Virus record (IMG/VR): IMGVR_UViG_3300000553_000048
Location: 1 to 56,581 of that record
Direction: 5' to 3' (one strand)
Origin: a virus
DNA length: 56,581 nucleotides
The translations under genes and the position numbers were made by a program. The first letter of the stretch is position 1. The number at the start of each line of letters is the position of its first letter. Shown piece by piece: positions 1,069 through 55,407 of the stretch. The notes below the pieces were generated by a model. It was not told where the DNA came from, made no database searches, and worked only from the letters and a program-made list of their open reading frames with translations.

Positions 1069-1515
1069 ATGGATTATGACGAGAATGAACTTGTCGAGGT
1101 GCAGGACACCGACTGGTATAAAGAAACTGTTGTCAGCATCACTCCTGGCGAGAACCTTCGCGCCTTCCGAGAAAAGTTCGGTATGACCCAGGCGCAGATC
1201 GGGGAGAAGATCGGCGGAATACCATCGAGTACAGCAGCCGGGACTTTCCAGATTTTGGAGCACTTCTTTGATTTTTACACAAAGAGCCTCAACCTGGACG
1301 GCACGTTCTCGAAAGACAATCAGAGGGCAATCGCACACCAATATTTCCGTGAGTGCCACGCCCTGGCTGATATCGTTGCGGGAAATTTTCTTGCCGCTTT
1401 GTCTCTTGTCCGTACCCGTTGGGCCAGCCTGCCGGATAGCGGAAATAATCAGCATGAGAACTCTGTCGCGCTCTTAAAGCAGGCTTATCTCGATGCAGGA
1501 GGGATGATTGCGTAA
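1069..1515 (+). pseudogene. Chimeric ORF: XRE antitoxin N-terminus fused to endolysin C-terminus
   Basis: Residues 1 to about 50 are the first half of an XRE/HigA-like antitoxin (SITPGENLRAFREKFGMTQAQ), ending before the recognition helix. From GIPSSTAAG onward the protein matches the endolysin at 55876-56355 almost residue for residue (EHFFDFYTKSL to the C-terminus). The join lies in a short shared DNA stretch around 1217-1232 (gGGAATaCCATCGAGTAC). The endolysin part lacks the region with the catalytic Glu (E18 of the intact copy), and the HTH part lacks helix 3, so neither activity is expected. I infer a deletion that joined an early antitoxin gene to the endolysin of an older related prophage. 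No good ribosome binding site precedes ATG 1069. Confidence 0.75.
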
Positions 1516-1589
1516 GCTTCGATTATGAGCTGACGCGTTTCCTATCGATTAAGTTCTGTGGACAAATATGGACAAAAATTAAACAAAAA

Positions 1590-1615
1590 GGGCTTGAGAA
1601 TTAACTCTCAAGCCC
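1590..1615 (-). terminator. Hairpin terminator downstream of int, overlapping the att core
   Basis: A perfect 10-bp stem (1590-1599 with 1606-1615) has a 6-base loop. Read on the minus strand it is followed by a T-rich run (CTTTTTGTTTAATTTTTG), so it should stop transcripts coming from the integrase. Its right arm lies inside the att repeat. The matching place at the right end forms only an imperfect hairpin. Confidence 0.6.
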
Positions 1616-1672
1616 TTGATTTTATTGGTGCACCCGGAGGGATTCGGACCCCCGACACCCGGATTCGAAGTC
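1606..1672. other. attL: attL: 67-bp att core with the 3' part of tRNA-Arg
   Basis: This is identical to 56446-56512. It carries the tRNA 3' end including encoded CCA (TGG at 1626-1628), the T arm and the anticodon arm. After 1672 the tRNA sequence is lost: A at 1673 where the intact gene has C, and no D arm follows. This is the usual scar of a tRNA-targeting integrase. Confidence 0.92.
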
Positions 1673-1689
1673 AGGCGCTCACGTATCAG

Positions 1690-2757
1690 TTATTTAGTAT
1701 TTTTAGTATCTTCCGGTGTACCGTCCATGTCTCCATGTCTCCATACATTTCCATTTAGTAGCCTTCCTTGAGTGCGGATATACTCCCCTGCGAGGTGCTG
1801 ATACATCCCTGTAGTCGTCGGGGAGCTATGTCCCATTATTGACTGAAGGGCCGACAGATCCAGACCACTGACTGTAGCATTTGTGCCAAAACTATGACGC
1901 AGTAGATGGTGATAAACGTGCTTCTCTAATCCAACTTTTTTTGCTGCCCTGAGTAGGGCTTTTCTGATAGTCAGATACGGCCTTTTTGTTTCCGGATTGA
2001 CAGTGAGCCAGCCGGATACATCTTTCTTCTTAAGTAGCTCGGCCATAAGCCGGTCCGTGGTTATCGGCACGATCCGCTCCTTGCTTCCCTTGCCGACAAC
2101 GAAGATACAACCGTGTTCCAGCTCAACGTCTTTCCGGGTAAGGGTCATCGCCTCGTTTCGTCGTAGTCCCGCGTCCGCCATTAGCAAAAGGACAAGCCGG
2201 TATTCTGGTTCCATGGCTTCATAAATCTTCGTTATCTGCTCCTGGTTAAGAGGCCTGGGCTTTGGAGGGGATGACATTTTTTTTGAAAAACCAGAGATCC
2301 GGAACGACAGCTCTGAGCACATCTCATTATCCGCAGCCCAGCGGATCATTCCGGAAAAATAGGCCAGCTCCTTGTTTACCGTTCTCGCTTTCACTCCAGA
2401 GGATATCCTGGATGTCTTATAATCTTCTATCGACTGTCGGGTAATCTGGAAAGGGATATATTTGCTGAATGAGTCTCGTAAGGTGTTTTTCCATACTCTC
2501 TCAACGTCCTCGATGGTCTTGTCCGCCCTGTTCGCACGATAGAAGGATATCCATGATGGATAAATTTCCCCTATGGTCTTGGGCCGCGACGGAGAAGCAG
2601 GACGACGCTGACGCTCCATGATAGAGTCTTCCCACCCCAGCGCTTCTTTCTCGGAAGCGCAATTCACCGTCATTTGCTTTCTGGGATTCTGGTAACCACC
2701 AGGGCGGCAGTCGATTATCCAGTATCCTGGACGGGTAGGGTGAGGTCTTACGCTCAT
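1690..2757 (-). CDS. int: Tyrosine recombinase integrase
   Basis: This 355-residue protein catalyses site-specific integration and excision at the tRNA-Arg att core. The catalytic set is complete: R199 (GLRRNE), K223 (VGKGSKER), H284 and R287 (HHLLRH), H310 (IMGH) and Y319 (TGMYQHL). An N-terminal core-binding SAM-like domain covers about residues 60-160. Its stop codon lies 18 bp from the att core, so the gene reads toward attL. A TATAAT box on the minus strand lies about 25 bases upstream of the ATG, without a clear -35. The small AlpA-like protein at 14857 is a possible directionality partner. Confidence 0.95.
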   Translation of the reverse strand: MSVRPHPTRPGYWIIDCRPGGYQNPRKQMTVNCASEKEALGWEDSIMERQRRPASPSRPKTIGEIYPSWISFYRANRADKTIEDVERVWKNTLRDSFSKYIPFQITRQSIEDYKTSRISSGVKARTVNKELAYFSGMIRWAADNEMCSELSFRISGFSKKMSSPPKPRPLNQEQITKIYEAMEPEYRLVLLLMADAGLRRNEAMTLTRKDVELEHGCIFVVGKGSKERIVPITTDRLMAELLKKKDVSGWLTVNPETKRPYLTIRKALLRAAKKVGLEKHVYHHLLRHSFGTNATVSGLDLSALQSIMGHSSPTTTGMYQHLAGEYIRTQGRLLNGNVWRHGDMDGTPEDTKNTK

Positions 2758-2908
2758 ACTTGCATGTTATGTTGTGATGGTATATTATAACTTCAGGTAA
2801 TAATCAAGGGTCCGACCCCTTTCGGGGCCGGGTTTCAAAACTACCGGAGAAGCGTGAGTAATAATGCCATGATTTGCACTATCTGCTTGTAGTTTAACCG
2901 GATTTGAA

Positions 2909-2938
2909 TTGTCAGCTTAATCATATTAATCCTATGAT
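2909..2938 (+). promoter_or_regulatory. Candidate sigma70 promoter for the small RNA
   Basis: TTGTCA (2909-2914) and TATGAT (2933-2938) are separated by 18 bases; each has one mismatch to consensus. The predicted start is about 2945, just before the structured stretch. No ORF begins downstream before the terminator. Confidence 0.5.
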
Positions 2939-2944
2939 TGACGC

Positions 2945-3139
2945 TGGCAGGCCTGCCAACTTTAAAGGTTGGCTTTGAGGCTACGAAGAGCTTGGCCTGA
3001 TCAGTCAAGATTCTTGGCCTCTAACGGAGTGCTGGCCGGCACTCCGGGGATTACCTAAGGTCATCTGTTGGCGTGGCCAAAGGTTCCCAACTGAAACGGT
3101 ATTGTCTCCGGATGCCTACGGAGATGATACCGTTTTTTT
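2945..3139 (+). ncRNA. Candidate structured small RNA, about 195 nt
   Basis: The interval between int and the cargo lipoprotein has no ORF but holds several perfect hairpins. These are a GGCAGGCCTGCC palindrome (2946-2957), a GCCAAC/GTTGGC stem (2955-2973), and a 7-bp GGAGTGC/GCACTCC stem (3026-3045). The last element is a long terminator hairpin ending in seven T. Together with the promoter at 2909-2938 this forms a complete transcription unit. It does not look like 6S RNA, tmRNA or a common riboswitch. Function is unknown. Confidence 0.5.
3095..3139 (+). terminator. Rho-independent terminator
   Basis: Outer arms AACGGTAT (3095-3102) and ATACCGTT (3127-3134) and inner arms TCTCCG (3105-3110) and CGGAGA (3119-3124) form a long hairpin with a small internal loop, followed by T(7). 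It also lies directly after the stop of the minus-strand lipoprotein gene, but the T run favours the plus strand. Confidence 0.8.
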
Positions 3140-4330: not shown

Positions 4331-4690
4331 TTAAGGCCTCTCTTGAAATCGCGAACTGATTCGAGGAAAAAGCGGCCATTTTAAGCAGAGTTTAAGATAC
4401 AGTTTGGACCCGTGTCCAAAATTGGAGGCGGCTACTCCCTTCTTATCTACAACCAGATTTCTAATTACCATCAAGACGAGAATATGATTAGAAAAATTTA
4501 CCCCGAAAGTCCTGAATTTTCGACGGCCGAATTTTCGGCCGTCGAAGCCTTTGTTCCTTTTTTTGTTACTAAGCAGATTTATTCCGGAATTCTGAAAGAT
4601 AGTTCCGGAATAAAATGCTTTTCCTGAAAAAACCACAGCGTGGTATTCAGATGACCGCTCTCTTGGTCGATACTATCAACCGAAGTCCCA
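4331..4690. other. Non-coding stretch with strong inverted repeats
   Basis: I see no convincing gene here, although short frames exist on both strands. It holds a 13-bp perfect inverted repeat with a 2-base centre (4519-4531 and 4534-4546, core TTCGACGGCCGAA). Two copies of the palindromic TTCCGGAA box also occur (4582-4590 and 4603-4611 as TTCCGGAAT). These could be protein-binding sites or stem-loops at the junction between the repressor and cargo transcripts. Low GC outside the repeats suggests a foreign origin. Confidence 0.5.
4627..4644 (-). terminator. Terminator of the repressor transcript
   Basis: On the minus strand ACCAC-GCT-GTGGT is followed by a run of T (4627-4632 read as A on the plus strand). 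It lies about 50 bases after the repressor stop codon. The stem is short, so efficiency may be moderate. Confidence 0.5.
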
Positions 4691-4692
4691 AT

Positions 4693-5253
4693 TTATCCAT
4701 TCGATACTTTAGTCTCTTTTTTGTCAGTAATTACAATATCGTTAGAATCAATCAGTCTTTTTAATTGCTCGGTCAACTGAGAAATATTCTGATTTGACAA
4801 ATCTACTTTCTTGTTTAGTTCTTTTATTTCTTCCCTCATGACAGCATTCTCCTTTTCCCTTTTAATGGATGTATGAAACGCTATAATATTGGAGGCCAGC
4901 GCCGGGCCACATTCTGTCCCTGATTTCAGCACTTCTATTGTCATCGGAACAAGCCTGGAGTCAATCACAATGTCATCTGGTTGTTCCTCTTCGTTCTCTT
5001 GTAGTTCGTTTGTAGAAATTAATTCTACAAAAGGGCTTCCCTCTCCGGTTCTCAGGTAGTTTTCTGAAAGTTCTTTATTACACCTGTAGAGAATTTTTTC
5101 TAAGGCGTTCGTTCTGTTCCGCATTTTCCAAGCATTTAAAGTTCCCTCTTTAACAGAGAGATAATCAGCCACCTCTCTGTATGTGCGGAGTTTTTTTGCC
5201 TCCATGATTCTCTGTAGAATAATTTCTATGTTCATATAATTTATTATTGACAT
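4693..5253 (-). CDS. CI-type phage repressor with HTH domain and coiled-coil tail
   Basis: This 186-residue protein has an N-terminal phage CI repressor HTH domain (about residues 8-75; YREVADYLSVKEGTLNAWK and ENYLRTGEGSPF). The C-terminal half lacks the usual LexA-type S24 peptidase fold. It is a predicted coiled coil instead (about residues 130-175), so RecA-driven self-cleavage is not expected. It should keep the prophage silent from the divergent promoter region. ATG 5253 has no Shine-Dalgarno site, and a minus-strand TATAAT box (5262-5267) places the start point almost on the ATG, suggesting a leaderless mRNA. A second in-frame ATG lies at 5235. Confidence 0.8.
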   Translation of the reverse strand: MSIINYMNIEIILQRIMEAKKLRTYREVADYLSVKEGTLNAWKMRNRTNALEKILYRCNKELSENYLRTGEGSPFVELISTNELQENEEEQPDDIVIDSRLVPMTIEVLKSGTECGPALASNIIAFHTSIKREKENAVMREEIKELNKKVDLSNQNISQLTEQLKRLIDSNDIVITDKKETKVSNG

Positions 5254-5545: not shown

Positions 5546-6354
5546 ACGAATTGATCACAATCGGAACACAGGAAATTTCAGGTGAAGGAAAGCAAACAGT
5601 CAATGCGAGGGACATGCACTCTTTCCTTGAAGTTAAGAAGGATTTTTCTAACTGGATAAAGAAGCAAATTGAACGAGCTAGGTTGATCGAAGGGCGCGAC
5701 TTTATAAAGGTCGCCCAAAAAGGCGAGCTTTCAAAAACAGGCCAAATAACAATCGAATACTTTCTCACCCTTGAGGCAGGCAAGCACATCGCCATGCTTT
5801 CCGGCACCGAGAAAGGGTTTGAGGTTCGTGAGTATTTCATCGAATGCGAGAAAGCAGCAAAAACACCCATCCAACTTCCAGATTTCACCAACCCAGCCAT
5901 AGCGGCCCGCGCCTGGGCGGATGAGGTCGAGCAGAAGCAAGTGCTTCAACTCACCCTTCAGGAGCAGGCCCCGAAGGTCCAGTTTGCTGAAACCGTCCAG
6001 GCTTCCACCAAGGCAATTAAGATTGGCGATTTCGTCAAGCTCATCTCCAACAAGACCGGTTTCGTCATCGGTCGGAACAACTTCTTTGAGTGGCTACGCT
6101 TTGAGAAGATCATTGAGCGTCGGAGTATGCCCTTCCAGCGGTATATAGACAACGGCTGGTTCGAGGTGAAGGAAGCCACCTACGAGAACATCAATACGAA
6201 CGGCCCTCAAGTGTGCTTTACGACTCTTGTTACAGGATTCGGGCAGGTTGCGCTTTTGGAGCGTTTCAAAAAGTCCGAAACTTTCAAGAAGTTTTTGAAT
6301 AAGAGCGCCAGGGGGAACTCTCAGCGTCTTGTCGGTGTGGAGGCTACGGTCTGA
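5542..6354 (+). CDS. Phage antirepressor (AntA/AntB plus KilAC domains)
   Basis: This 270-residue protein has an N-terminal AntA/AntB domain (about residues 15-100; VNARDMHSFLEVKKDFSNWI, YFLTLEAGKHIAMLS). Its C-terminal KilAC domain covers about residues 135-250 (IKIGDFVKLISN, GRNNFFEWLRFEKI). Proteins of this layout bind or titrate phage repressors to promote induction. It is translationally coupled to the Cro-like gene (4-base overlap), and its last base is shared with the next gene's start. Confidence 0.88.
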   Translation: MNELITIGTQEISGEGKQTVNARDMHSFLEVKKDFSNWIKKQIERARLIEGRDFIKVAQKGELSKTGQITIEYFLTLEAGKHIAMLSGTEKGFEVREYFIECEKAAKTPIQLPDFTNPAIAARAWADEVEQKQVLQLTLQEQAPKVQFAETVQASTKAIKIGDFVKLISNKTGFVIGRNNFFEWLRFEKIIERRSMPFQRYIDNGWFEVKEATYENINTNGPQVCFTTLVTGFGQVALLERFKKSETFKKFLNKSARGNSQRLVGVEATV

Positions 6355-19945: not shown

Positions 19946-21142
19946 ATGAGACAGTTAATTACAACCGAGAAAAAGCCTATAAAACTGTGGCTGTACGATA
20001 TTGAGGAAGGCGCGTTAAAACAGGCGCAGAATATAGCCAACTTGCCTTTTATTTTTAAGCATATTGCGTTGATGCCGGATGCACACCAAGGATACGGAAT
20101 GCCTATCGGTGGTGTAATGGCTACACGGGGAGTTGTCGTCCCGAATGCGGTGGGAGTGGATATAGGCTGCGGTATGATTGCCGCCCGGTCATCAATTCTG
20201 AATATCGAAACAGAAACTCTGAAAATGATAATGGGTGGCTCGCGGGAGAACAAGGGCGGGATCCGGGGCCATGTGCCGGTGGGGTTTTCTCACCAATCAA
20301 AACTCCAAGACGAGAAACTGATGCCGAATATCAGGGATTTTGGGGATCACGGAGAAATGCCTATTGTTGGGGAAGAATACCAAGCTGCTCTAAAACAATT
20401 AGGGACTCTCGGTGGCGGCAATCATTTTATCGAAATCCAAAAAGGTAGCGATGGTTTTGTGTGGGTCATGATCCATTCCGGCTCTCGAAACCTTGGATAT
20501 AAAGTCGCTAATCATTACAATCACCTGGCAAACGAGTTGAACAGAAAGTGGTTTTCCGAAGTTCCAATGTCTCACGAATTGGCTTTCCTTCCTCTTGACT
20601 CCAAGGAAGGGCATTCCTACTTACAGGAGATGAGGTATTGCGTTGAGTTTGCTCTTGCTAGCCGAAAACTGATGATGGAGCGCGTACAACAGTGCATAGC
20701 TGAAGTGGTGGGCGAAGTGGAGTTTGATGAAAGTATCAATATTGCACATAACTATGCCGCCATGGAACATCATTTTGGGGAGAATGTCCTTGTGCATCGA
20801 AAAGGGGCTACAAAAGCCGGTATGGGACAATTGGGGATTATCCCTGGTAGCCAAGGATCAGCGAGTTACATAGTCCGTGGTCTTGGAAATCCGGAGAGTT
20901 TTATGTCGTGCTCTCATGGAGCGGGGAGGAAAATGGGAAGAAAACAGGCCCAACGAGAATTGTCTTTAAAGGTGGAAAAGCAACGCCTTGACGAAATGGG
21001 AGTGATTCACAGTATTCGCACACCCAAAGACCTGGATGAGGCCGCAGGGGCTTATAAGGACATCCATGCGGTTATGGAGAACCAAAAGGATTTAGTATCC
21101 ATCGAAATTGAGTTAAAGCCTTTGGCGGTGGTAAAGGGGTAA
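19946..21142 (+). CDS. rtcB: RtcB RNA ligase
   Basis: This 398-residue protein is the usual length for RtcB, which joins 2',3'-cyclic phosphate and 5'-OH RNA ends using GTP and Mn2+. Metal-binding motifs are intact: MPDAHQGYGMPIGGV, GVDIGCGMIAA, GGGNHFIEI, HSGSRNLG, HNYAAMEHHF. The guanylylated His is in SCSHGAGR (H324). It starts after AAAGGAG and is the last gene before the late promoter. In a phage it may repair tRNAs cut by anticodon nucleases. No archease or RtcA gene is next to it. Confidence 0.93.
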   Translation: MRQLITTEKKPIKLWLYDIEEGALKQAQNIANLPFIFKHIALMPDAHQGYGMPIGGVMATRGVVVPNAVGVDIGCGMIAARSSILNIETETLKMIMGGSRENKGGIRGHVPVGFSHQSKLQDEKLMPNIRDFGDHGEMPIVGEEYQAALKQLGTLGGGNHFIEIQKGSDGFVWVMIHSGSRNLGYKVANHYNHLANELNRKWFSEVPMSHELAFLPLDSKEGHSYLQEMRYCVEFALASRKLMMERVQQCIAEVVGEVEFDESINIAHNYAAMEHHFGENVLVHRKGATKAGMGQLGIIPGSQGSASYIVRGLGNPESFMSCSHGAGRKMGRKQAQRELSLKVEKQRLDEMGVIHSIRTPKDLDEAAGAYKDIHAVMENQKDLVSIEIELKPLAVVKG

Positions 21143-40585: not shown

Positions 40586-43500
40586 ATGGATCTTAACGCT
40601 GCATTTGGATCTCAGCCAAGCCCGTTCACCCCTCCTGCTTCTTCTGCGGGACAGCAGGACCAGGGGAAATCTGCGTCAATTGACCTTAATGCAGCTTTTG
40701 GTTCCCAGCCGGACCCTCTCGGAGGAAATAAAACTAATAGTCCCTCTGGTCCTCCCGGTCCCGTCGACCCGTCTTCTGATGACGTGAAGTATACCGGCGC
40801 TCCTGACCCTGGCATGACAGACCAAAATCAAGACAACCATTATTACAACGAATACGTTCAGAAGCCTGTTTCTTCATTTATTGGTTCTCTGGCAAAGTTG
40901 TATGAGATGTTGGGAGTCATGCCGACCGCTGCCGCAGTGGACAAGCTGACCGGCAACAATCAGGCAGTAGATACGGCAGGCCAAGCCTACGATACTGCTG
41001 CTCAATTCAAGGAAGATCAGCGTCCAGGCTCTGACGTCGGAGCACCCGGCCGTTTTGTCCGTGGGGTTGAAGATGTGGCACCTCTGGCGCTCCTGGGTCC
41101 GGAAGGATTTATTGCAGACGCCGCGGCTGAGGGTGGAGGCGATTCTCTCCGGTCCGGGCATGACCTTACGACCGCTGAATTGCAAATGGTGAAGGATGCG
41201 GGTTTTGCCGCCCTGTTCTCCAATGTTCCTATGGCTGCAAATTCCCTACTCGGATCCGTCGTGAAAGGTGCAGCTGTCAATACAGGTCTTTCTATTGCTG
41301 ATCAATATGCGCAGAAACTTCTGCTTAATTCCCGGGGGTACGGACAAGAGGCGTCTCAAATCAACCCGCTTTCCGCTGAAAATCTCGGTACCGGCGTGGG
41401 AATGGGCGTTATCTTCGGCGGTCACCAGTTTCTTGGAATGCAGAATGCAGCGAAAAGTCTTTCGAGTGAAATCAATACCTCAATCGACAACGGCGACATT
41501 ACGCATGACCAGGGCGTCCAGACCGTCCAGCAATCCGGATTACCCAGAGTTCTGCAACGGCCTATTATCGATTCCATTCTTCAGAAAAAGATTCTCGATG
41601 CCGGTAATATTGATGATGCCATAAGCGCGGCCAACGATGTGACAAATGCCGCTCCTGGCCCCGGCCCTGTTTTTACGGATGAGGAAAAAGCCGGGCACCT
41701 GGCGGAAGCTGCCCAGCGTCTTGATTTTCTGGAAAACAATCCTTCCCCGGATACCGACAACGAGCTCCAATTCCTTCGGATGAATTCCGAGAATCATGAC
41801 GCGCTCGTAGACAGATATAACCCTCAGCCTTCCGTGGCCGCTGAGTCGTTGCCTTGGATCTCTCAGGCAAACACCACGCCTCTTGATCTCTCTGGCGGCG
41901 ATATTGGTATTATTCACTCGCCGGTATCCAGTGACACCCCTTTCACTATGCGAAGACCGGACGATGTTTATTCTCCATACTCTCCGGACCTGGCGCAACA
42001 GCTGAACACGAAACTGATAGCTGACACTCCCTGGATTCACAAGACCGGCATGGAACAGGTTGACCCGGATACTGCGGCATGGTTGCAGCATCGGGTGAAT
42101 GCTCTTGATTATGCGCAGAAGCAGAACGAGCAACAGGCCCAATCTCCGGATGCCCAGACCCGCCTTGTCGCCTCTGTCCAGCGCGTAAACCTGCTTAATC
42201 AGATGTCTGACCTTCTCGTCAAGCAGTACCATGAAGGCCAGATGAACGGCTGGATCAACGATACCGCCGGGCAGAATATCACCGACAACAGCGGCCAAGA
42301 TCTGGGGTGGGTTCAAAAATCCAAACCTTTTGACGATCTCTCCGGGCGGCGAGACGGTGAGGGATGGGCTAATTTTCTAAGACGTCGCCAGACCGGCACT
42401 ATCCTTCCTGATGATCTTGAGTCGAAACTGAACCTTCTTCAGCAGCAAATGAAAGAAGGGGAGACCGGCTCCAGGTGGCAGAACGAAGACTTTGTTGACG
42501 CAAACGGCCAGACCGTGCCGGGTGATTGGGATGGCGTCAAGTCAACGAATCCCGACTGGTTAAAATCCGGCGTCTTGAAAGATGCCGGTAAGGATGGCAT
42601 CAACACTGTTATCGATAAGTCTCGGGCTGGCCTTCCGCTCACCGGCAAGCAAGCAGATGTATGGGCTGCGGTCAAGCAGGCCGCTGACGATGCTTACAAT
42701 AGCGACCCGCATATTGCAGCCGCAAACGAAGCTCAGCGGCTTCATGAGTCCGGTATCGATATCCACGCCCCTGAATCAATCCCTGTCGGCAATCTTTCTG
42801 AAGGCGACCAGGTTGTTGTTCAGGGCAAGGATGGTATGCCGGATCTTGTCACGCATAAGGGCTATGATGACCAGGGGCAGGCTATCCTGCAGGATGGTGT
42901 TACGATTCACGCTGACCCTTGGGATATGGTCGACTCGATGGGGGTAAAGCCTGCCGGCGTAAGTGTTAATGAAACGCCGGATGGTGAGACAAAACCTGTC
43001 TTGAGTCTCACGGATGAGACGCAAGCGTCCGAATATGGTAAGGCTAATACCGTATTTACTCAAGATGCTGCCGACAAAGCGAGAGCTCTGCTTCGGTCAA
43101 AATTAGGACAGCTCAACAGCGGCATCGATCCCGAATTAATGCAGGCCGGTATTACCATAGCCGGGTACCACGTAGAAGCTGGCGCCCGAAAATTCACCGA
43201 CTACGCCAAGGCTATGGTGGGAGATTTCGGAGAGAAGATAAAACCTTTCCTTCGTTCATTTTATGAGGCCGTCCGTCATTATCCTGGTATGGAAGATGCG
43301 GGATTGAGCGACCCTAAAGAAATAGAGGGTACCGACCTTGCTTCTATATCTCAAGGTCAATATAATGAATTGACACCACAGCAAAACCAAGACGGAGGTT
43401 TCTCAAATGCTGACATCAATAACACCGGAAATCTGGCACGAGATCGGGGCGACTCAGCAGTTGCGGACACGCTGGGCCAAGATGGCCTTCGTAATGGGAG

Positions 43501-46500
43501 CGGACCAGATGAACGCCTTGATCGACAAGGAATATCAGGAGATGATGGCCAGGGGTATATCTCACGAAGTGGCCTACGCATATCTGGACGTGAAGCCTCT
43601 GCTCTTGGAGAACGTAGCAATCTCTCGATACATCGTGCAGACGGACAATCACTCCCTGCGGAGCGCGTTGCCGGAAGTAGTCACAACGACGGAGGCGACC
43701 CGGTTGGCCTCTCGGGAAAATCCCTTCCTTACGAGGCAGCAGTTAAGCCAGCTACAGGGATTGCTGGCGGCCGACTTGGATTAACAGAAAAGATACTCCA
43801 ACAGAAAAAAGCCAATACTGGTAAGGTTGAAGGAAATAGCCTTGCCGATATCGCAAAAAACCTTCCTCTCTTACATCCTCACCAGCAAGAAGACGTTAAG
43901 TTTGCAGAAAATCGCTTTGCAAACCCTGACGGTCACGGTGTCATGTTTACCAACGGCACAGGCACAGGAAAGACCTTCTCTGCCCTCGGAATAATGAAGC
44001 GCATGGAGATGAAAGGGAAAGGTGAAATCCTTGTCCTTGTTCCGAACGATACCATTGCAAATGATTGGATTAAGGCAGGGAACCACTTTGACCTTGGGAT
44101 TACACGACTGAAGAACACAAAAGACAATGGCGAAAAAGGCGTCAGCCTGACTACATACGCAAACTTTGGATCGAACGACTCTCTCGCCTATCGCAAATGG
44201 GATCTTGTTGTTGCCGATGAAGCTCAACTTTTGGGAAGTAATGCGTCAGGCGATGCCACAAAGGCGCTCACCACCTTTAGGGCAATTACAATGCACCCGG
44301 AAGGTGCTTATGCGCGGCATACAATGCTGCACAGCGAGGAAATAGGACAACTCTCCTCTCTTGTGCGAGAAAAAGAAGCTGCCAAGGCAACTTTTCAGCA
44401 GTCTACTGATCCGGCTGAAAAATCAGTTGCCGAGAAGACAATAGCCAGGCTTGATCCTGCAATCAAAGAATTATCTTTTTCTCTCAGAGAAAAGCAATCT
44501 CAGGTCAAGCAAGAGGTCAAAGACGCCCAGCCTGACGGCAGATCGAAAGCCGTATTCCTTTCAGCAACTCCGTTTGCCTACGAAAAGAGTACCGACCTCG
44601 GGAATGGATACTTATTTCACTATCCGGTTGAGACGAATTCTGGCGGATATAACAGCGGATCCCCTCGCGATAGGTTTATGATGGAGCATTTCGGATACCG
44701 CATGAGATATAACAAACTCACTGCGCCCGAGGCAGAAGTCGACAGTGGGTTGATGCAACGTCAGTTCAATTCGTACCTAAAAAAACAAGGAGTATTGTCC
44801 GGTAGAATGCTGGATGTTCCTTTCGATTATGACCGGAAATTCTCCCTGATAGATTCATCTATCGGCAGACTGATAGATGACGGTATGGAGTTCTTGAACG
44901 AGAACCCTAAGTATCACGCGCTGAGCGCGATTCTGCATGACAAGTTTGATTACCTAAAGCGCCGGTTCCTTCTCGAGGCAATCAAGGCCGACCGAATCGC
45001 ACCTGAAATTCAGTTGCATCTTAACGCTGGTCGAAAGGTTGTGGTCTTCCATGACTACATCAAGGGTGGTGGCTTCAACCCCTTTGACTTCAGTGACCAT
45101 AGGTTTAACAGCGAGAGCGTTAATTATGAAGACGGTGACGGAGAGAAACAAAGCGTGCAGATTGGGCATCTTGTCCATGATTTTGGAGTAGAGCGCCCCG
45201 ACCTTGTCGGCCTGCCGATTGCAAACCTGCCAACACCGCTTGAATCAATGAGGAGGGCCTTTCCGGGTTTGCTTGAGGTGAACGGCCAGACGGTTTCAAA
45301 GCAACAAGTTCGCAACAATATAGCCACATTCAACGACGACATGAGCGGACCACAGGTGATGATGGTCCAGTCCGATAAGGAAGCCGGGTGGTCAGGGCAC
45401 GACACCACCGGCAAGTTTCAGAGGGTCCTGTTTAATCTCGGACTCCCGACCAGGCCGACCAGGGCCATACAGCAGGAAGGCCGGATATATCGAGACGGGC
45501 AGGCGTCTGACGCTCTTATCCGTTACGTGAACACCGGGACCAACTGGGAACGATGGGCCTTCGCCTCTACTATCGCGCATCGGGCGTCTACGGCTGAGAA
45601 TCTGGCTATGGGTGAAACGGCAAGGGCTCTCAAGGATGCCTTTATCGAGGGCTTTGAAGATTCAGGGTCTTTTCCCCCTGGTTATCCTGGCGAAGGTACA
45701 GGAGGTAAGGAACGTGACGCTGCGGCCAATGCTGCCCTGTCCGACTGGGACCGTGCAATCTCTCTCTATTTTTCTCAGCAGAAAAGAAATTCCCGGAACA
45801 AATCGGCAGAAGGGAAAGACTATTTTGCTACGCCTGAGCCTCTGGGAATGAAAATGGTTGAGTGGGCAAACCTGCGCGGCAGCGAGAAAGCACTTGAGCC
45901 TTCAGCTGGACATGGGGCTATTGCGCGATGGTTTCCGGAAAATACCGAAAATACCGTCGTCGAGCCGTCTCTTGAATTGGCCAGCCGTTTGGCTATGGTC
46001 ACAGATGCAAAACTGGTTAACGCCCCGTTTGAAAATCTCAATATCGTCAACAAGTTTGATGGCATTGTGATGAACCCCCCGTTCGGAACTGCTGGTAAGA
46101 CAGCTATGGATCATATCGAGAAGGCTGCGGGGCATCTGCGGGACGGAGGCCGTATCGTTGCCCTGATTCCGGCTGGTCCTTCTATGGATAAGCGGGTGGA
46201 TAATTTCCTTTATGGTACGGACGCAAAAGGGAAAATGATCAACCCAGATCTTCACCTTATTTCTTCGTATGATCTGCCGAGCTCTGTGTTTGAACGTGCC
46301 GGCACAAAGGTTTCCTGCCGTGTCTTGGTAATCGATAAACAATCTGATCCTGATATCGCGCAACGTCTCCAACAGACCGCCCCGAGGGATTACACCGGAC
46401 TTTCGATAAAAGAGTTCTTTGACCGGATTGAGAATAGCCAGGTCCCGGACCGGATCTCTCCGGTTGCAAATGAGCCATTACCGGAACAGCCAAAAGTCTA

Positions 46501-49500
46501 CACTCCGGACGAACTTATTCCGCCGGGAGAGAAGGGCGCGCTTCCATCTTCAAACCATGACATTGTCGAACATACGACGATGAAAGGGAAGGTTCTTACA
46601 GGAATTGTCCGGACGGATTTAACGAAAGATCAGGCGAAGGAAATCGACCCTTACACATTCAAGAAGGATGGAGGGTTCTTTATCCGAGAAAAGTACCTTG
46701 ATAATCCTGAAACGAAATACTCGATCGGCGATAATGCACCCGTCGAAACCCACACGCCAGAATCCTTTCACCAGGCAGCCACCGACGCCCTGAACGCTGA
46801 GCATGGCGGCCTCGGTCAGTTGATGCGGCATATCAATGTCATTCACGATGCTGATATTTCGGATGAGGTTAGGAAAGGGCAAGAAGGTATTCAAGGTTTC
46901 GTCCACGACGGCAAAGCCAACATCGTAGCCGATAATATCCCCAAGGATTGGACAGACCAGCAGATGACCGGTCTGATCAAGCACGAAGTCGCCGACCATA
47001 TTCTCAACCTTGGCCACGCGGACGCCGAGTATCAGAGTATTGAACGTTCGATGGATCTTATGCGCCGGGCTGGAAATCCAGTTGTCGTTGAGGCGTACAG
47101 TAGGGTCCCAGAGGGGACCAGGCCACAAGACGTCAACCGGGAGGCGATTGCTTACCTCATCCAGCATGCGCCCGAGCAGTCTATCGTGCAACGATTCGTT
47201 ACATGGTTCCGGGGAAAACTCCGTGCCCTGTCTCAGGCTATTCCGGGCTTTGATCGCCTGCGGGTTGCCACCTGGGCAAATAGGCTCACTCCTGACGACC
47301 TGATCGGGATGGCACATGATGCTTTAGTCCGGGCTCCTGCGGTCCTGGATAGAAAAGCCCTTGCCAATCAGCAGACCGGCAATATAGGATTAGGTAAAGG
47401 AGAAAATAACCATGGCAATGACACCGGAAGAGAACGAGGCCAATATCCAGGAAATCCTGCGGACCTGTCCAGGGATGACCAGGGAAAAGATAGCGGAGTG
47501 GGACAAGTCGGGCAAACCGATGACCAAAGAAACCTTGCAGCAGCACAGGGAAGCGGGAGTGAAGCGCCCGGTTCGTCCAAGTTTACAGGATGGTTTGGTA
47601 AGTCAGCACTAACTGACGAATCTGGAAACCCTCTTATCTATACTCATAAATCCAAGACTTTCGGGATGGATGACAATCCTGACTCTTGGATTTTCAATCC
47701 TGATAAATCTGGTCAACAGACCGGCTCTCCTATGTCTGGGATTGGGAGTTTTTTCGCAAGAAAAGAATCTCGTCCCATGGAACCGAATGTAAAATCCAGC
47801 GAATCAAAAGACTTCTATCTCCGTCTTGAGCATCCTTTGGAGATGTCCTCTGCCGACTTACCGCGATTTAATAACGTGGAAGAGGCAAAGGCCTGGGCCA
47901 AAAGGCAGCATGATCTTAACGGATACGACGGAGTCATGTTCACCGACCATGACGATGTGGTTATCTTTCACCATAATCAGGCGAAGTCTGCGGACTTCAA
48001 TAACGGTGAATATTCCAGGACCAACAACGACACTCGATATTCCATAGCAGACGGCAAGGGATTCCGGAAGGACGATGAAGACGAAAAGCCTGTTGCCGGT
48101 CCGGATGATATTCGAAAGCCCCTGACACAGCGTATCAACGACGCCAGCTCTCGGCTTGGTCAGTTTACCGATAAATCCCGGTATATGCAGGAGGATATCA
48201 AGCCAGCTGTCAAGGAAGCTGTCACCGGGCTGAAACTGGTATATCAAGGATTACAGAGCCTGGTTCATCCGACAGGCGTCAGTGAGGCTGCGGCAAAGGC
48301 AGGTAGCGCCCTGAATGCCGCTATGGGGGCGAGGAATCGCGGCGGCGATGTCTTCCGGGCGAATCTCGACAAGGCATATTCGGACCAGAAGGAATACACG
48401 TCAAAACTGGCAAAGATCATGGACCTGTCGACAACGTCGTCGGGGCTCCTGGCCGACAACCTTTTTAATAAGATGGACGTCCAGGGTCAGCACGATTTCA
48501 TTACCCGGATGGAGAAGGGCCAGCAGCAGCCGACAAAGCAGATGCAGGATATTGCGGATGTCATTCGTAAGATGTTCGACGCCAAGGTTAAGCAGGTCCA
48601 GGACCTGGGGACCGGGGCTTTGCAGAGCGTGATTGAAAACTATTTTCCGCACATCTGGGAAGATAAACTGAACGATCACCAGATACAGACGACTCTTTCA
48701 AAGACCAAGCTTGAGGGATCTAAGGCCTTCACTAAACAGAGGGTATTTGAAGATATTCAAGCTGGTCTTGATGCCGGGTTTAAACTGGTTTCCGACAATC
48801 CGCTCGACCTTGTTTTCCTGAAAATGCACGAAATGGATAAGTACCTGGTCGCGCATTCCGCCCTGCAGGAGATGTCAAAGTATGGCGTCGTGCGGATGAT
48901 TAAGGCGGGTGCTGATGTCCCAAAAGGTTTCAAAGTAATCGACGGGCCTTTCGGAGTCGTCACCAAGAAGGACGGATCCGCTTACCGGTATGCAGCGACT
49001 GACGATGTCCATCAGGTGTTTCATAATTACCTGTCTCAGAGCTGGTATAACAATAAGTATTTCGGCACAGCGTACACGGCATACATGGGAGCGGCAAACC
49101 GGCTTAATATGTTCCAGCTTGGCGTCGGTTCAATGTTCCATGTCGGCTTTGTCACCAATGACGCCGTTGTCGAGAATTGCGCTCTTGGGTTGAAGTCATT
49201 CACTGAGGGGAAGTTCACCAAATCAGCCAAGTATTTCATGGAGGCTCCGACGGCGCCAATAAAAAACTGGCGACTTGGCGGTAAGATCCTCGATGCGTGG
49301 GAAGGGCAAGGGCAATTCATGCCGGCCGTAATCAAAATGCTCGAACTGTCTGGGGCAAAGAATGGCCTAGATAATCGGTTCCGGATTGATTCAACGCAAA
49401 AGATGCAACAGGCCTTTGCAAATGGGAAACTCCTAAAGGGAATCTTTCATGCTCCGGCGGCGATCGTTGCCCAGATGACCAGACCGATAATGGAAGGGCT

Positions 49501-50677
49501 TGTTCCTCGTATGAAGTTTGCCGCATTCGCCGAGATGGCAAACCATTGGATGGAGACAAACCCGAACGCGACGCACGAAGAACTGCAGCAACAGGCTCAG
49601 CAGATTTGGAATAGGATTGACTCCCGGCTCGGGCAGGTCAATTATGATCGGCTCTATATCAATAATTCTGCCAAAAGCGTGATACAGGCCCTTGTCCGTG
49701 CTCCTGGGTGGACTGGTGGCACCATGCTTGAAGTTGGTGGTGCTGTTACCGATACCGGAAGTGCTGTGCTTGGTCTCCTGAAAGGGAATAAGCCGGTGAT
49801 GACTGACCGTATGGCTTACACGGCATCTCTATTACTCTGTAACGCCATTGCGACCGGGTTGCTCACCTATCTTTTCACTGGCGAAGCTCCGCACGGGAAA
49901 GACTTCATTGCTTTCCGGACCGGCGGTGTGGACGAATACGGAAATCCGGAACGCTGGACGCTGCCGACATACGCAAAAGACATCTACGCCTACTCTCAGC
50001 ATCCATTTGATACGTTGCTAAATAAGACTCACCCGATAATCTCAATGGGAAAGGATCTTATAAAAAACAGCGACTATTACGGGGTGGAGATCTGGCACCA
50101 GGACGACAACCCGCTTACCCAGTTGGCGCAGGCCAGCGGATATGTTGCCAAACAGTTTGTTCCCTTCTGGATGCGTGGCGCTGCCAAGTCGGCAGAGCGT
50201 GGTGACAGCCTTGCAGCTATGGCGGCTCCCCTTGTTGGCATCATGCCAGCCACAGGCGAACTGACCAAGACGGCGGCCCAGTCTGACATGAGCAACATCT
50301 ACAAGCAAACTGCGGCATTTGATAAAACCAGGACGCAAGCACAGTTTGACAAGTCAAACTTGCGGCGTGACATCATCCGCAAGCTGCGAATGGGCGACGT
50401 ATCGGGGAATGGTGATATCAGCCAGGCTTTGGCTGCCGGGACGCTGTCGCAGAAGGATGTGGTCGGTATCCGTAGAGACAGTATGGTAACTCCTGGCGAA
50501 ACTCAGTTCAACCGGCTGTCCTTGCCCCAAGCAATAACGGTTTACGAAGACGCGACGGACGAAGAAAAGGCAAAGTTCAAGCCTATCCTGATCCGCAAGG
50601 GGCAGTCTATCATGGCTATTCCTGTCAGTGAACGCGGCAACATTCAGCAACGGTACAACCAGGCTATCAGCCAGTAA
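40586..50677 (+). CDS. Giant phage polyvalent protein: helicase, DNA methyltransferase, zincin, ART-like, large C-terminal region
   Basis: One unbroken 3363-codon ORF. Two short repeats (DLNAAFGSQP) open it. A superfamily 2 helicase follows at about residues 1080-1700 (GTGTGKT 1124-1130, DEAQ 1211-1214, SATPF about 1326, QQEGRIYRDGQ from 1629). An adenine-type methyltransferase lies at about 1745-1930 (EPSAGHG 1771-1777, NPPFG 1830-1834). A zincin-like motif HEVADH starts at 2133. An ADP-ribosyltransferase-like domain lies at about 2330-2480 (KFTGWFGKSALTDESG, YDGVMFTDHDDVVIF). The C-terminal 850 residues are mixed helical with one hydrophobic segment (LLLCNAIATGLLTYLF). Polyvalent proteins are thought to be ejected with the DNA to protect it and attack the host. 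Two extra genes are nested in its linkers. Confidence 0.9.
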   Translation: MDLNAAFGSQPSPFTPPASSAGQQDQGKSASIDLNAAFGSQPDPLGGNKTNSPSGPPGPVDPSSDDVKYTGAPDPGMTDQNQDNHYYNEYVQKPVSSFIGSLAKLYEMLGVMPTAAAVDKLTGNNQAVDTAGQAYDTAAQFKEDQRPGSDVGAPGRFVRGVEDVAPLALLGPEGFIADAAAEGGGDSLRSGHDLTTAELQMVKDAGFAALFSNVPMAANSLLGSVVKGAAVNTGLSIADQYAQKLLLNSRGYGQEASQINPLSAENLGTGVGMGVIFGGHQFLGMQNAAKSLSSEINTSIDNGDITHDQGVQTVQQSGLPRVLQRPIIDSILQKKILDAGNIDDAISAANDVTNAAPGPGPVFTDEEKAGHLAEAAQRLDFLENNPSPDTDNELQFLRMNSENHDALVDRYNPQPSVAAESLPWISQANTTPLDLSGGDIGIIHSPVSSDTPFTMRRPDDVYSPYSPDLAQQLNTKLIADTPWIHKTGMEQVDPDTAAWLQHRVNALDYAQKQNEQQAQSPDAQTRLVASVQRVNLLNQMSDLLVKQYHEGQMNGWINDTAGQNITDNSGQDLGWVQKSKPFDDLSGRRDGEGWANFLRRRQTGTILPDDLESKLNLLQQQMKEGETGSRWQNEDFVDANGQTVPGDWDGVKSTNPDWLKSGVLKDAGKDGINTVIDKSRAGLPLTGKQADVWAAVKQAADDAYNSDPHIAAANEAQRLHESGIDIHAPESIPVGNLSEGDQVVVQGKDGMPDLVTHKGYDDQGQAILQDGVTIHADPWDMVDSMGVKPAGVSVNETPDGETKPVLSLTDETQASEYGKANTVFTQDAADKARALLRSKLGQLNSGIDPELMQAGITIAGYHVEAGARKFTDYAKAMVGDFGEKIKPFLRSFYEAVRHYPGMEDAGLSDPKEIEGTDLASISQGQYNELTPQQNQDGGFSNADINNTGNLARDRGDSAVADTLGQDGLRNGSGPDERLDRQGISGDDGQGYISRSGLRISGREASALGERSNLSIHRADGQSLPAERVAGSSHNDGGDPVGLSGKSLPYEAAVKPATGIAGGRLGLTEKILQQKKANTGKVEGNSLADIAKNLPLLHPHQQEDVKFAENRFANPDGHGVMFTNGTGTGKTFSALGIMKRMEMKGKGEILVLVPNDTIANDWIKAGNHFDLGITRLKNTKDNGEKGVSLTTYANFGSNDSLAYRKWDLVVADEAQLLGSNASGDATKALTTFRAITMHPEGAYARHTMLHSEEIGQLSSLVREKEAAKATFQQSTDPAEKSVAEKTIARLDPAIKELSFSLREKQSQVKQEVKDAQPDGRSKAVFLSATPFAYEKSTDLGNGYLFHYPVETNSGGYNSGSPRDRFMMEHFGYRMRYNKLTAPEAEVDSGLMQRQFNSYLKKQGVLSGRMLDVPFDYDRKFSLIDSSIGRLIDDGMEFLNENPKYHALSAILHDKFDYLKRRFLLEAIKADRIAPEIQLHLNAGRKVVVFHDYIKGGGFNPFDFSDHRFNSESVNYEDGDGEKQSVQIGHLVHDFGVERPDLVGLPIANLPTPLESMRRAFPGLLEVNGQTVSKQQVRNNIATFNDDMSGPQVMMVQSDKEAGWSGHDTTGKFQRVLFNLGLPTRPTRAIQQEGRIYRDGQASDALIRYVNTGTNWERWAFASTIAHRASTAENLAMGETARALKDAFIEGFEDSGSFPPGYPGEGTGGKERDAAANAALSDWDRAISLYFSQQKRNSRNKSAEGKDYFATPEPLGMKMVEWANLRGSEKALEPSAGHGAIARWFPENTENTVVEPSLELASRLAMVTDAKLVNAPFENLNIVNKFDGIVMNPPFGTAGKTAMDHIEKAAGHLRDGGRIVALIPAGPSMDKRVDNFLYGTDAKGKMINPDLHLISSYDLPSSVFERAGTKVSCRVLVIDKQSDPDIAQRLQQTAPRDYTGLSIKEFFDRIENSQVPDRISPVANEPLPEQPKVYTPDELIPPGEKGALPSSNHDIVEHTTMKGKVLTGIVRTDLTKDQAKEIDPYTFKKDGGFFIREKYLDNPETKYSIGDNAPVETHTPESFHQAATDALNAEHGGLGQLMRHINVIHDADISDEVRKGQEGIQGFVHDGKANIVADNIPKDWTDQQMTGLIKHEVADHILNLGHADAEYQSIERSMDLMRRAGNPVVVEAYSRVPEGTRPQDVNREAIAYLIQHAPEQSIVQRFVTWFRGKLRALSQAIPGFDRLRVATWANRLTPDDLIGMAHDALVRAPAVLDRKALANQQTGNIGLGKGENNHGNDTGRERGQYPGNPADLSRDDQGKDSGVGQVGQTDDQRNLAAAQGSGSEAPGSSKFTGWFGKSALTDESGNPLIYTHKSKTFGMDDNPDSWIFNPDKSGQQTGSPMSGIGSFFARKESRPMEPNVKSSESKDFYLRLEHPLEMSSADLPRFNNVEEAKAWAKRQHDLNGYDGVMFTDHDDVVIFHHNQAKSADFNNGEYSRTNNDTRYSIADGKGFRKDDEDEKPVAGPDDIRKPLTQRINDASSRLGQFTDKSRYMQEDIKPAVKEAVTGLKLVYQGLQSLVHPTGVSEAAAKAGSALNAAMGARNRGGDVFRANLDKAYSDQKEYTSKLAKIMDLSTTSSGLLADNLFNKMDVQGQHDFITRMEKGQQQPTKQMQDIADVIRKMFDAKVKQVQDLGTGALQSVIENYFPHIWEDKLNDHQIQTTLSKTKLEGSKAFTKQRVFEDIQAGLDAGFKLVSDNPLDLVFLKMHEMDKYLVAHSALQEMSKYGVVRMIKAGADVPKGFKVIDGPFGVVTKKDGSAYRYAATDDVHQVFHNYLSQSWYNNKYFGTAYTAYMGAANRLNMFQLGVGSMFHVGFVTNDAVVENCALGLKSFTEGKFTKSAKYFMEAPTAPIKNWRLGGKILDAWEGQGQFMPAVIKMLELSGAKNGLDNRFRIDSTQKMQQAFANGKLLKGIFHAPAAIVAQMTRPIMEGLVPRMKFAAFAEMANHWMETNPNATHEELQQQAQQIWNRIDSRLGQVNYDRLYINNSAKSVIQALVRAPGWTGGTMLEVGGAVTDTGSAVLGLLKGNKPVMTDRMAYTASLLLCNAIATGLLTYLFTGEAPHGKDFIAFRTGGVDEYGNPERWTLPTYAKDIYAYSQHPFDTLLNKTHPIISMGKDLIKNSDYYGVEIWHQDDNPLTQLAQASGYVAKQFVPFWMRGAAKSAERGDSLAAMAAPLVGIMPATGELTKTAAQSDMSNIYKQTAAFDKTRTQAQFDKSNLRRDIIRKLRMGDVSGNGDISQALAAGTLSQKDVVGIRRDSMVTPGETQFNRLSLPQAITVYEDATDEEKAKFKPILIRKGQSIMAIPVSERGNIQQRYNQAISQ
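43407..43784 (+). CDS. Nested gene A inside the polyvalent gene (+1 frame), 125 aa
   Basis: ATG 43407 is preceded by GGAGG with an 8-base spacing. The product looks like a folded helical protein (TPEIWHEIGATQQLRTRWAK, GADQMNALIDKEYQEMMAR, SHEVAYAYLDVKPLLLENV, TRQQLSQLQGLLAADLD). Codons end mostly in G or C, as in ordinary genes of this phage. In the same stretch the giant protein (residues 941-1067) is an unstructured Gly/Asp/Arg/Ser-rich linker. I take this frame as a real gene and the giant frame here as overprinted linker. Function unknown. Confidence 0.72.
   Translation: MLTSITPEIWHEIGATQQLRTRWAKMAFVMGADQMNALIDKEYQEMMARGISHEVAYAYLDVKPLLLENVAISRYIVQTDNHSLRSALPEVVTTTEATRLASRENPFLTRQQLSQLQGLLAADLD
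47412..47612 (+). CDS. Nested gene B inside the polyvalent gene (+1 frame), 66 aa
   Basis: ATG 47412 follows AAAGGAG at good distance. The product is helical and charged (MTPEENEANIQEILRTCPGM, TREKIAEWDKSGKPMTKETL, QQHREAGVKRPVRP). The giant protein over this stretch (about residues 2276-2342) reads as Gly/Asn/Asp/Gln-rich linker between the zincin and ART-like domains. The last 15 or so codons overlap the start of the ART-like domain and may be a run-on tail. Function unknown. Confidence 0.65.
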   Translation: MAMTPEENEANIQEILRTCPGMTREKIAEWDKSGKPMTKETLQQHREAGVKRPVRPSLQDGLVSQH

Positions 50678-54349: not shown

Positions 54350-54808
54350 ATGAGCTTTTTAAAAGCAATGCAGTACGGCCAGGTCATAGAGAATCCGGCC
54401 ACATACAAGAACCTGCAGAACTCCATCAACCTCTTGGTTGCCCTGCTCAGTATTGGGGGACAAGTTCTGCACTCTTATGGTTTTACCGTCAACCTGTCAG
54501 AAGCGCATGCGGTCACGATAGCAACCGCATTGGCGGTCTCCTTTTGTGCTCTCAACGCCCTTTTTACGGTGATTACATCTGACGATATGGGTATCAAAAT
54601 TCGTGCCGCGCAACCGTCTCCCTCTCAGGTAATGGCGGAACAGCTTCCCCGGCTTATCAAGGCCCTTGAACTGATGCTTGCACAGCCTCCTGCTTTCCCG
54701 GCTCCTGTAACTGAAGTGAAGGTTGCTGTTCAGACCGCGCCGGACGTTGCCGCCCAAAAGGCTCAGGATCCAGCAGCGGCTGCTGCAACGGGAGGAGGTG
54801 CTGCGTGA
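54350..54808 (+). CDS. Holin-like membrane protein, 152 aa
   Basis: ATG 54350 has GGAG just upstream; an in-frame ATG at 54338 lacks a site. Two hydrophobic segments (INLLVALLSIGGQVLHSYGF, VTIATALAVSFCALNALFTV) lie in the first 90 residues, with an Ala/Gln/Pro-rich cytoplasmic tail. It would fit a two-span holin, though longer than most. Overlaps the lipase by 4 bases. Confidence 0.55.
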   Translation: MSFLKAMQYGQVIENPATYKNLQNSINLLVALLSIGGQVLHSYGFTVNLSEAHAVTIATALAVSFCALNALFTVITSDDMGIKIRAAQPSPSQVMAEQLPRLIKALELMLAQPPAFPAPVTEVKVAVQTAPDVAAQKAQDPAAAAATGGGAA

Positions 54809-55407
54809 CGGTTAAAGATTTCGCGAAAATAGCAGATGCCGCCTATACAGCGGTCCCGACAATCGGGGACCCGAACAGCGCGTCCAGGGCGATTGTCACC
54901 AGAGACGATGCTGACGCATCAGCAATCGTCTCGTTCCCCGGCAGCGACAACGTAGCCTGCTGGCTGGCGGATCTGGACGCAGAGGTATCAGATCATCCTG
55001 GACTTGGGTTGATACACAAGGGTTTCTGGTCTGCATGGGTTGCGATAAAAGAGCAGGTCTATCGAGCCATAGAAGGATGTAGGACTGTGACGTGGGTTGG
55101 TCATTCTCTTGGGGCTGCCCTGGCGATTCTGGCCGGGTCTGACTATGCGGAGATATTCAAAAAGACGACCATCTACGGCTTCGAACCTCCTCGGGTTTCT
55201 GCTGATGGAGCGATCGAGAGACTTATTTCGACGCTTAAGGTGGATATTTCCTTGTACCAGAACGGAAACGATGTGGTCCCTGATGTCCCTCGCATCCTGC
55301 AGAACTGGCAGCACCCGGCGCCATTAATCAAAATTGGAAAGCCGTTTCTACCATTCGCCAATATCAACGACCATGAAATGAGCCGAGTTATAAAAGCACT
55401 CGCATAA
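54805..55407 (+). CDS. Class 3 lipase in the lysis cassette
   Basis: This 200-residue alpha/beta hydrolase has GHSLG with nucleophile Ser101, Asp156 in GNDVVPD and His190 in INDHEMSR, a complete catalytic triad. The N-terminal oxyanion region is IVSFPGSDNVACWLADLDA. It has no signal peptide. GTG 54805 overlaps the holin-like gene. Placed between holin-like and endolysin genes, it may break down membrane phospholipids at lysis; the substrate is inferred. Confidence 0.8.
   Translation: MTVKDFAKIADAAYTAVPTIGDPNSASRAIVTRDDADASAIVSFPGSDNVACWLADLDAEVSDHPGLGLIHKGFWSAWVAIKEQVYRAIEGCRTVTWVGHSLGAALAILAGSDYAEIFKKTTIYGFEPPRVSADGAIERLISTLKVDISLYQNGNDVVPDVPRILQNWQHPAPLIKIGKPFLPFANINDHEMSRVIKALA

Follow-up and report, generated by a model that had tools for sequence, protein, structure and literature searches.

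An open reading frame nested in a giant polyvalent phage gene

The window, that is, the whole stretch of DNA analysed here, is the 56.6-kb virus record IMGVR_UViG_3300000553_000048 (positions 1 to 56,581). It encodes an integrase, RecT, the large terminase, a portal-like protein, the major head protein and tail-fibre genes, and hence probably represents a temperate tailed phage. One of its open reading frames (ORFs) encodes a giant protein of 3363 amino acids in which Pfam and PHROG recognize several effector domains, an SNF2-type helicase and a DNA methylase among them. The PHROG matches of this protein (phrog_10691, E = 7e-159 and 1e-187, as well as the DarB-like phrog_10089) are giant phage proteins, the DarB-like antirestriction family among them. 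By these matches and by the order of its domains, the giant belongs with the polyvalent DarB-like SNF2-ATPase/DNA methylase proteins described previously (PMC5512222). The features of this region, in window coordinates, are the following:

40586–50677, plus strand: giant polyvalent ORF, 3363 aa, containing the nested gene (ORF list; PHROG matches)
43061–43363, plus strand: helical domain of the giant, predicted to be folded, immediately 5′ of the overlap (AF2 pLDDT ~95; PHROG matches, giant residues about 805–994)
43370–43723, plus strand: giant-frame linker across the nested gene, stop-free and predicted to be disordered (AF2 pLDDT <50, without secondary structure; 0 stops against 226 expected, 134 loci)
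43394–43398, plus strand: putative Shine-Dalgarno (SD) motif GGAGG, 8 bases 5′ of the ATG (sequence; family-wide SD enrichment)
43407–43784, plus strand: nested gene, ATG to TAA, 125 codons, +1 relative to the giant ORF (tblastn, HMM, substitution pattern, AF2)
43871–45619, plus strand: SNF2/ResIII-type helicase region of the giant (Pfam ResIII, E = 9e-9; SNF2-rel_dom, E = 3e-6; Helicase_C_4, E = 2e-4, weak)
46049–46162, plus strand: DNA methyltransferase region of the giant, forming a helicase–methylase dyad (Pfam MTS, E = 6e-4; PHROG DNA methyltransferase, E = 2e-20)
47690–48010, plus strand: possible ADP-ribosyltransferase (ART-PolyVal) domain of the giant (Pfam E = 2e-4, under the curated cut-off)

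A preliminary description of this DNA had reported a 125-codon ORF in the +1 frame of the giant, a GGAGG site 8 bases ahead of its ATG, codons ending mostly in G or C, and a host frame that over the same interval amounts to a Gly/Asp/Ser/Arg linker. All of this holds. The spacing between the GGAGG and the ATG is exactly 8 bases, GC content at small-frame codon positions 1, 2 and 3 is 0.56, 0.39 and 0.73, and the giant frame is rich in the four named residues and predicted to be disordered. The helicase region of the giant begins about 90 bases 3′ of the nested gene.

The length of such an ORF by itself proves nothing, because the same giant contains +1 ORFs of 118, 121 and 105 codons (41268–41624, 42582–42947 and 48315–48632) for which no homolog was found in any locus, against 137 matches for the nested ORF; these neighbours are rejected as chance ORFs. 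Antisense ORFs over the helicase do have matches, which we read as mirror images of giant-frame conservation. What places the nested ORF far above chance is the combination of its conservation, its start-site signals and its pattern of substitutions.

Conservation and distribution of the small gene

A tblastn search of 50,697 phage records with the 125-aa product retrieved eight records from six distinct phages, namely, Klebsiella phage ZX1, Serratia phage Parlo, Pseudomonas phage Skulduggery, Ruegeria phage 45A6 and two Vibrio phages, at 35–39% identity (E ≤ 7e-11). In all six, the match lies in the +1 frame within an annotated giant coding sequence (CDS) and is itself unannotated; the same is true of a homolog carried by a Comamonas plasmid. 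A search of the phage collection with the downstream helicase segment returned the identical eight records. A scan of IMG/VR with the single small ORF of the window gave no match; the short exact peptide patterns used there miss relatives at 35% identity.

Relatives were gathered on a larger scale through the downstream helicase: an alignment of seven sequences (A1) contained no stretch that was conserved enough, and a helicase profile (A2) was used in its place. It yielded 80 loci from IMG/VR and 64 from genomes and, importantly, fetching by helicase places no selection on the presence of the small gene; 13 further loci were gathered through the small gene itself. The small-gene HMM matched 159 of the 166 fetched loci, and in each of these 159 the small CDS is wholly contained in another, always in the +1 frame, and the giant frame is open throughout. 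The small gene is present in every locus in which the helicase gene is N-terminally extended (158 of 158) and in none of the seven that lack the extension. The latter, six Flavobacteriia-type genomes and one Thiotrichales bin (L114, L115, L118 and L121–L124), have a helicase gene that starts at the helicase itself; they reside in other mobile-element contexts, some with ParB-like and DNA methylase genes upstream.

Members of the small family occur in phages and prophages of Pseudomonadota, Bacillota, Bacteroidota, Verrucomicrobiota and Campylobacterota. Genome surveys beyond the Negativicutes produced few matches, and weak, partial profile matches at two loci (L178 and L184) are taken as chance. 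Some loci depart from the common arrangement. In Pseudomonas thermotolerans (L150, about 5687–5947), a deletion has removed the middle of the small gene and left the giant frame open, which we read as a decaying prophage or a loss of the small gene. In Acinetobacter prophages (L109, L110, L112, L130 and L131), the polyvalent gene is apparently split into several shorter genes, and the small gene continues to overlap the N-terminal portion of the helicase–methylase gene of 1233–1276 aa.

Start-site signals and selection in the overlap

The nested gene has a start codon and a ribosome-binding site of its own across the family. The start is ATG in 132 of 134 unique copies, 109 of which begin exactly at the first column of the profile, and the products are 118–150 aa long. 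An SD match of at least 5 nt precedes 57% of the copies and 6% of control ATGs downstream; for matches of at least 4 nt, the figures are 87% and 27%. A promoter scan around the nested gene found no promoter-like site, and we infer that translation would initiate internally on the mRNA of the giant.

Substitutions in the overlap follow the small frame: across 41 disjoint pairs, small-frame codon positions 1, 2 and 3 carry 979, 814 and 1617 substitutions (here and in the stop counts below, related sequences are treated as separate; the contrast is very large). This periodicity indicates that protein-level selection acts on the small gene, beyond any exerted through the containing frame. In the adjoining helicase, giant-frame codon positions 1, 2 and 3 carry 2054, 1545 and 4134 substitutions, and the wobble position is the most variable by far. 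Position 2 of the small frame coincides with the wobble position of the giant, which is therefore the least variable position within the overlap. The containing frame is nonetheless truly read through: synonymous shuffling of the small gene in 134 loci predicts 226 giant-frame stops, and none is observed, whereas the third frame contains 1445 stops against 1360 expected in the same test. Over the overlap, the giant frame is thus visibly selected only for staying open.

The preliminary description would have been refuted by the lack of any homolog together with conservation confined to the giant frame; instead, more than 150 homologs were found, and the selection that can be seen acts on the small frame, not on the giant frame. 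Its central proposal, an intact small gene that the giant traverses in a different frame, has good support on both counts.

Predicted structures of the two products

The two frames also differ in predicted fold. For the small protein, AF2 returned an all-helical model with a mean pLDDT of 96.0 and a pTM of 0.88 (100 relatives), and the median net charge of the product is −4; the small product is predicted to be a compact, mildly acidic, soluble, all-helical protein. The overlap portion of the giant reached a pLDDT of about 35–47, between a helical domain and a helicase that both score about 95.

Scanning 105 members against Pfam, PHROG, NCBIfam and PADLOC revealed no consistent family, only scattered weak matches of one or two members. 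Structure searches with the small protein yielded no significant match (Foldseek against PDB, best E = 3.3; against BFVD, best E = 1.2; VIA, Z ≤ 3.5), the Foldseek and VIA hits being unrelated helical proteins. The family is absent from these libraries, presumably because overlapped ORFs are discarded by gene callers.

Frameshift fusions are known in phages, and ribosomes slipping from the giant into the +1 frame would produce a truncated giant that ends in the small domain; in many loci, the +1 frame is indeed stop-free over some codons 5′ of the ATG. Entry by this path is, however, excluded in about 58 of the 134 copies, in which an in-frame stop lies 0–10 codons upstream of the ATG. Furthermore, the ATG and SD are conserved at a fixed column and both free-standing copies described below retain the ATG-start form, all of which makes frameshifting highly improbable. 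That the ORF arose by chance, or is a shadow of giant-frame conservation, can be dismissed for practical purposes: although the giant has other +1 ORFs of similar length, these lack the homologs that the nested ORF has, and the small-frame periodicity of substitutions refutes both ideas; the overlap protein of the giant is, in addition, predicted to be unfolded. From its sequence and those of its relatives, the interval 43407–43784 almost certainly constitutes a true nested gene, one that on this comparative evidence is real, widespread and unannotated.

Free-standing copies and evolutionary history

Two free-standing copies of the small gene were identified, both in genomes from a search of the class Negativicutes. 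Neither has a giant partner, and the small protein can thus apparently persist without the giant. One (L179; G440:C10:1-12000, positions 1461–3134) encodes a protein of 557 aa that carries the small-gene domain N-terminally and is located directly upstream of a type I restriction-modification (R-M) operon, hsdR-hsdS-hsdM. The C-terminal part of this fusion has no Pfam match, no relatives of the fusion were found in IMG/VR, and its family holds a single genome. The other (L180; G699:C13:4000-16000, about 4576–4935, minus strand) encodes 136 aa and lies about 540 bp upstream of, and on the same strand as, a gene called cas9-like from its sequence only; similar sequence is apparently repeated on either side of this copy.

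On the tree, both free-standing copies fall among overprinted Negativicutes copies, the 136-aa one with strong support, and are hence more likely to be escapees than ancestors. No pre-fusion ancestor was found, nor any relative in which the giant is split at the site of the nested gene. Distances between small proteins correlate with those between helicases (Mantel r = 0.55, 0 of 500 permutations), indicating that the two have been inherited together. In 98 of 134 loci (p = 7e-13), codon usage is nearer to that of the flanking giant in the small frame than in the giant frame, although in the window itself the two frames are not clearly different. Codon usage and fold together suggest that the linker is the younger frame.

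The proposal that the nested ORF was once a separate gene therefore has a mixed standing. It gains from the contrast between a folded, conserved protein and a disordered linker, from the codon usage, and from the absence of the small gene where the N-terminal extension is lacking; the position of the free-standing copies inside the overprinted clade and the lack of a relative with a split giant weigh against it.

A possible partner of DarB-like giants

The explanation that we favour, and consider probable as a whole, combines a nested gene, internal initiation, a disordered linker and a partner role. Ribosomes would initiate at the nested SD and ATG on the mRNA of the giant, and the giant would read the same bases as a disordered linker joining the upstream helical domain to the SNF2-helicase/DNA-methyltransferase part. 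Taken by itself, the suggestion of a dedicated partnership between the small protein and the helicase–methyltransferase giant is tentative, and we would put it somewhat short of an even chance; the argument for it is co-occurrence, which would follow from physical nesting in any case, neither fold nor family searches supported a biochemical role, and the two free-standing copies do without a giant. While the phage assembles in the producing cell, the small protein might keep the giant inactive or ready for loading, much as Hdf and DarA act for DarB in phage P1; alternatively, it could work with the giant on incoming DNA against restriction. Unlike the small gene, Hdf and DarA of P1 are separate genes that are not known to overlap.

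The P1 system offers the model for this analogy. DarB, a protein of the P1 head, protects DNA from type I restriction, and the SNF2–methylase dyad has been described; the paper in question mentions no nested gene, the word “overlapping” being absent and “reading frame” being used in another sense only (PMC5512222). Hdf and DarA, internal head proteins that accompany the injected DarB-type antirestriction protein, are required for packaging the other Dar proteins (PMC12810830), and a DarB-like giant has been detected in the virions of phage JC1 (PMC9144972).

The same observations can be arranged differently. The small protein could act freely in counter-defence (against type I R-M or CRISPR, for example) and be encoded within the giant without binding it. 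Both free-standing relatives adjoin defence genes (hsdR-hsdS-hsdM and the cas9-like gene, respectively), the protein is small, acidic and all-helical, and the containing giant is itself DarB-like. The two cases, however, differ in context and both come from Negativicutes, searches by fold and by family matched no known inhibitor, and in the sets searched the small gene never occurs in giant-less phages; we regard such a factor as unlikely. With respect to origin, classical overprinting would have the small gene born de novo within a pre-existing linker of the giant, in keeping with the lack of any free-standing copy outside the overprinted clade, the nesting of both known ones within the Negativicutes copies, and the lack of a related family in library scans. 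Against this, it is the small frame that is folded and conserved and the giant frame that is disordered and unconstrained, the small frame resembles the flanks more closely in its codons (in the majority of loci, if not clearly in the window), and helicase genes without the extension lack the small gene, which leaves de novo birth rather unlikely. A broader reading, which we consider doubtful, is that this unseen family, hidden from annotation by its alternative frame within giant phage genes, serves generally as a counter-defence factor or as a control subunit of helicase–methyltransferase anti-restriction giants, that the giants were assembled by reading through an older gene, and that bacteria captured the small gene at least twice beside defence loci.

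Comparison with known nested genes

The nested genes of large dsDNA phages tend to be short, confined to one lineage or devoted to lysis at the membrane. In phiX174, gene E is nested inside gene D. Like E in D and the Rz1-in-Rz spanins, the small gene is complete, has its own start and occupies another frame of a larger phage gene. However, Rz1 and E are membrane-linked lysis proteins, whereas the product here is predicted to be soluble and all-helical and is encoded within a giant anti-defence gene; moreover, it is the containing frame, rather than the nested one, that is disordered and unconstrained. Phage JC1, for which an embedded Rz1 has been described, is also a carrier of a DarB-like giant (PMC9144972). 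The locus offers a clear natural example of two frames under different demands: a folded protein constrains one, whereas the other needs only to stay open. It also illustrates how giant polyvalent genes may join modules across a resident gene, and it draws attention to a putative, unstudied partner of DarB-like anti-restriction proteins.

Elsewhere, the window encodes an RtcB RNA ligase (19946–21142; Pfam E = 2.5e-109) and, 3′ of a tail-fibre gene, a class 3 lipase domain (54805–55407; Pfam E = 1e-14).
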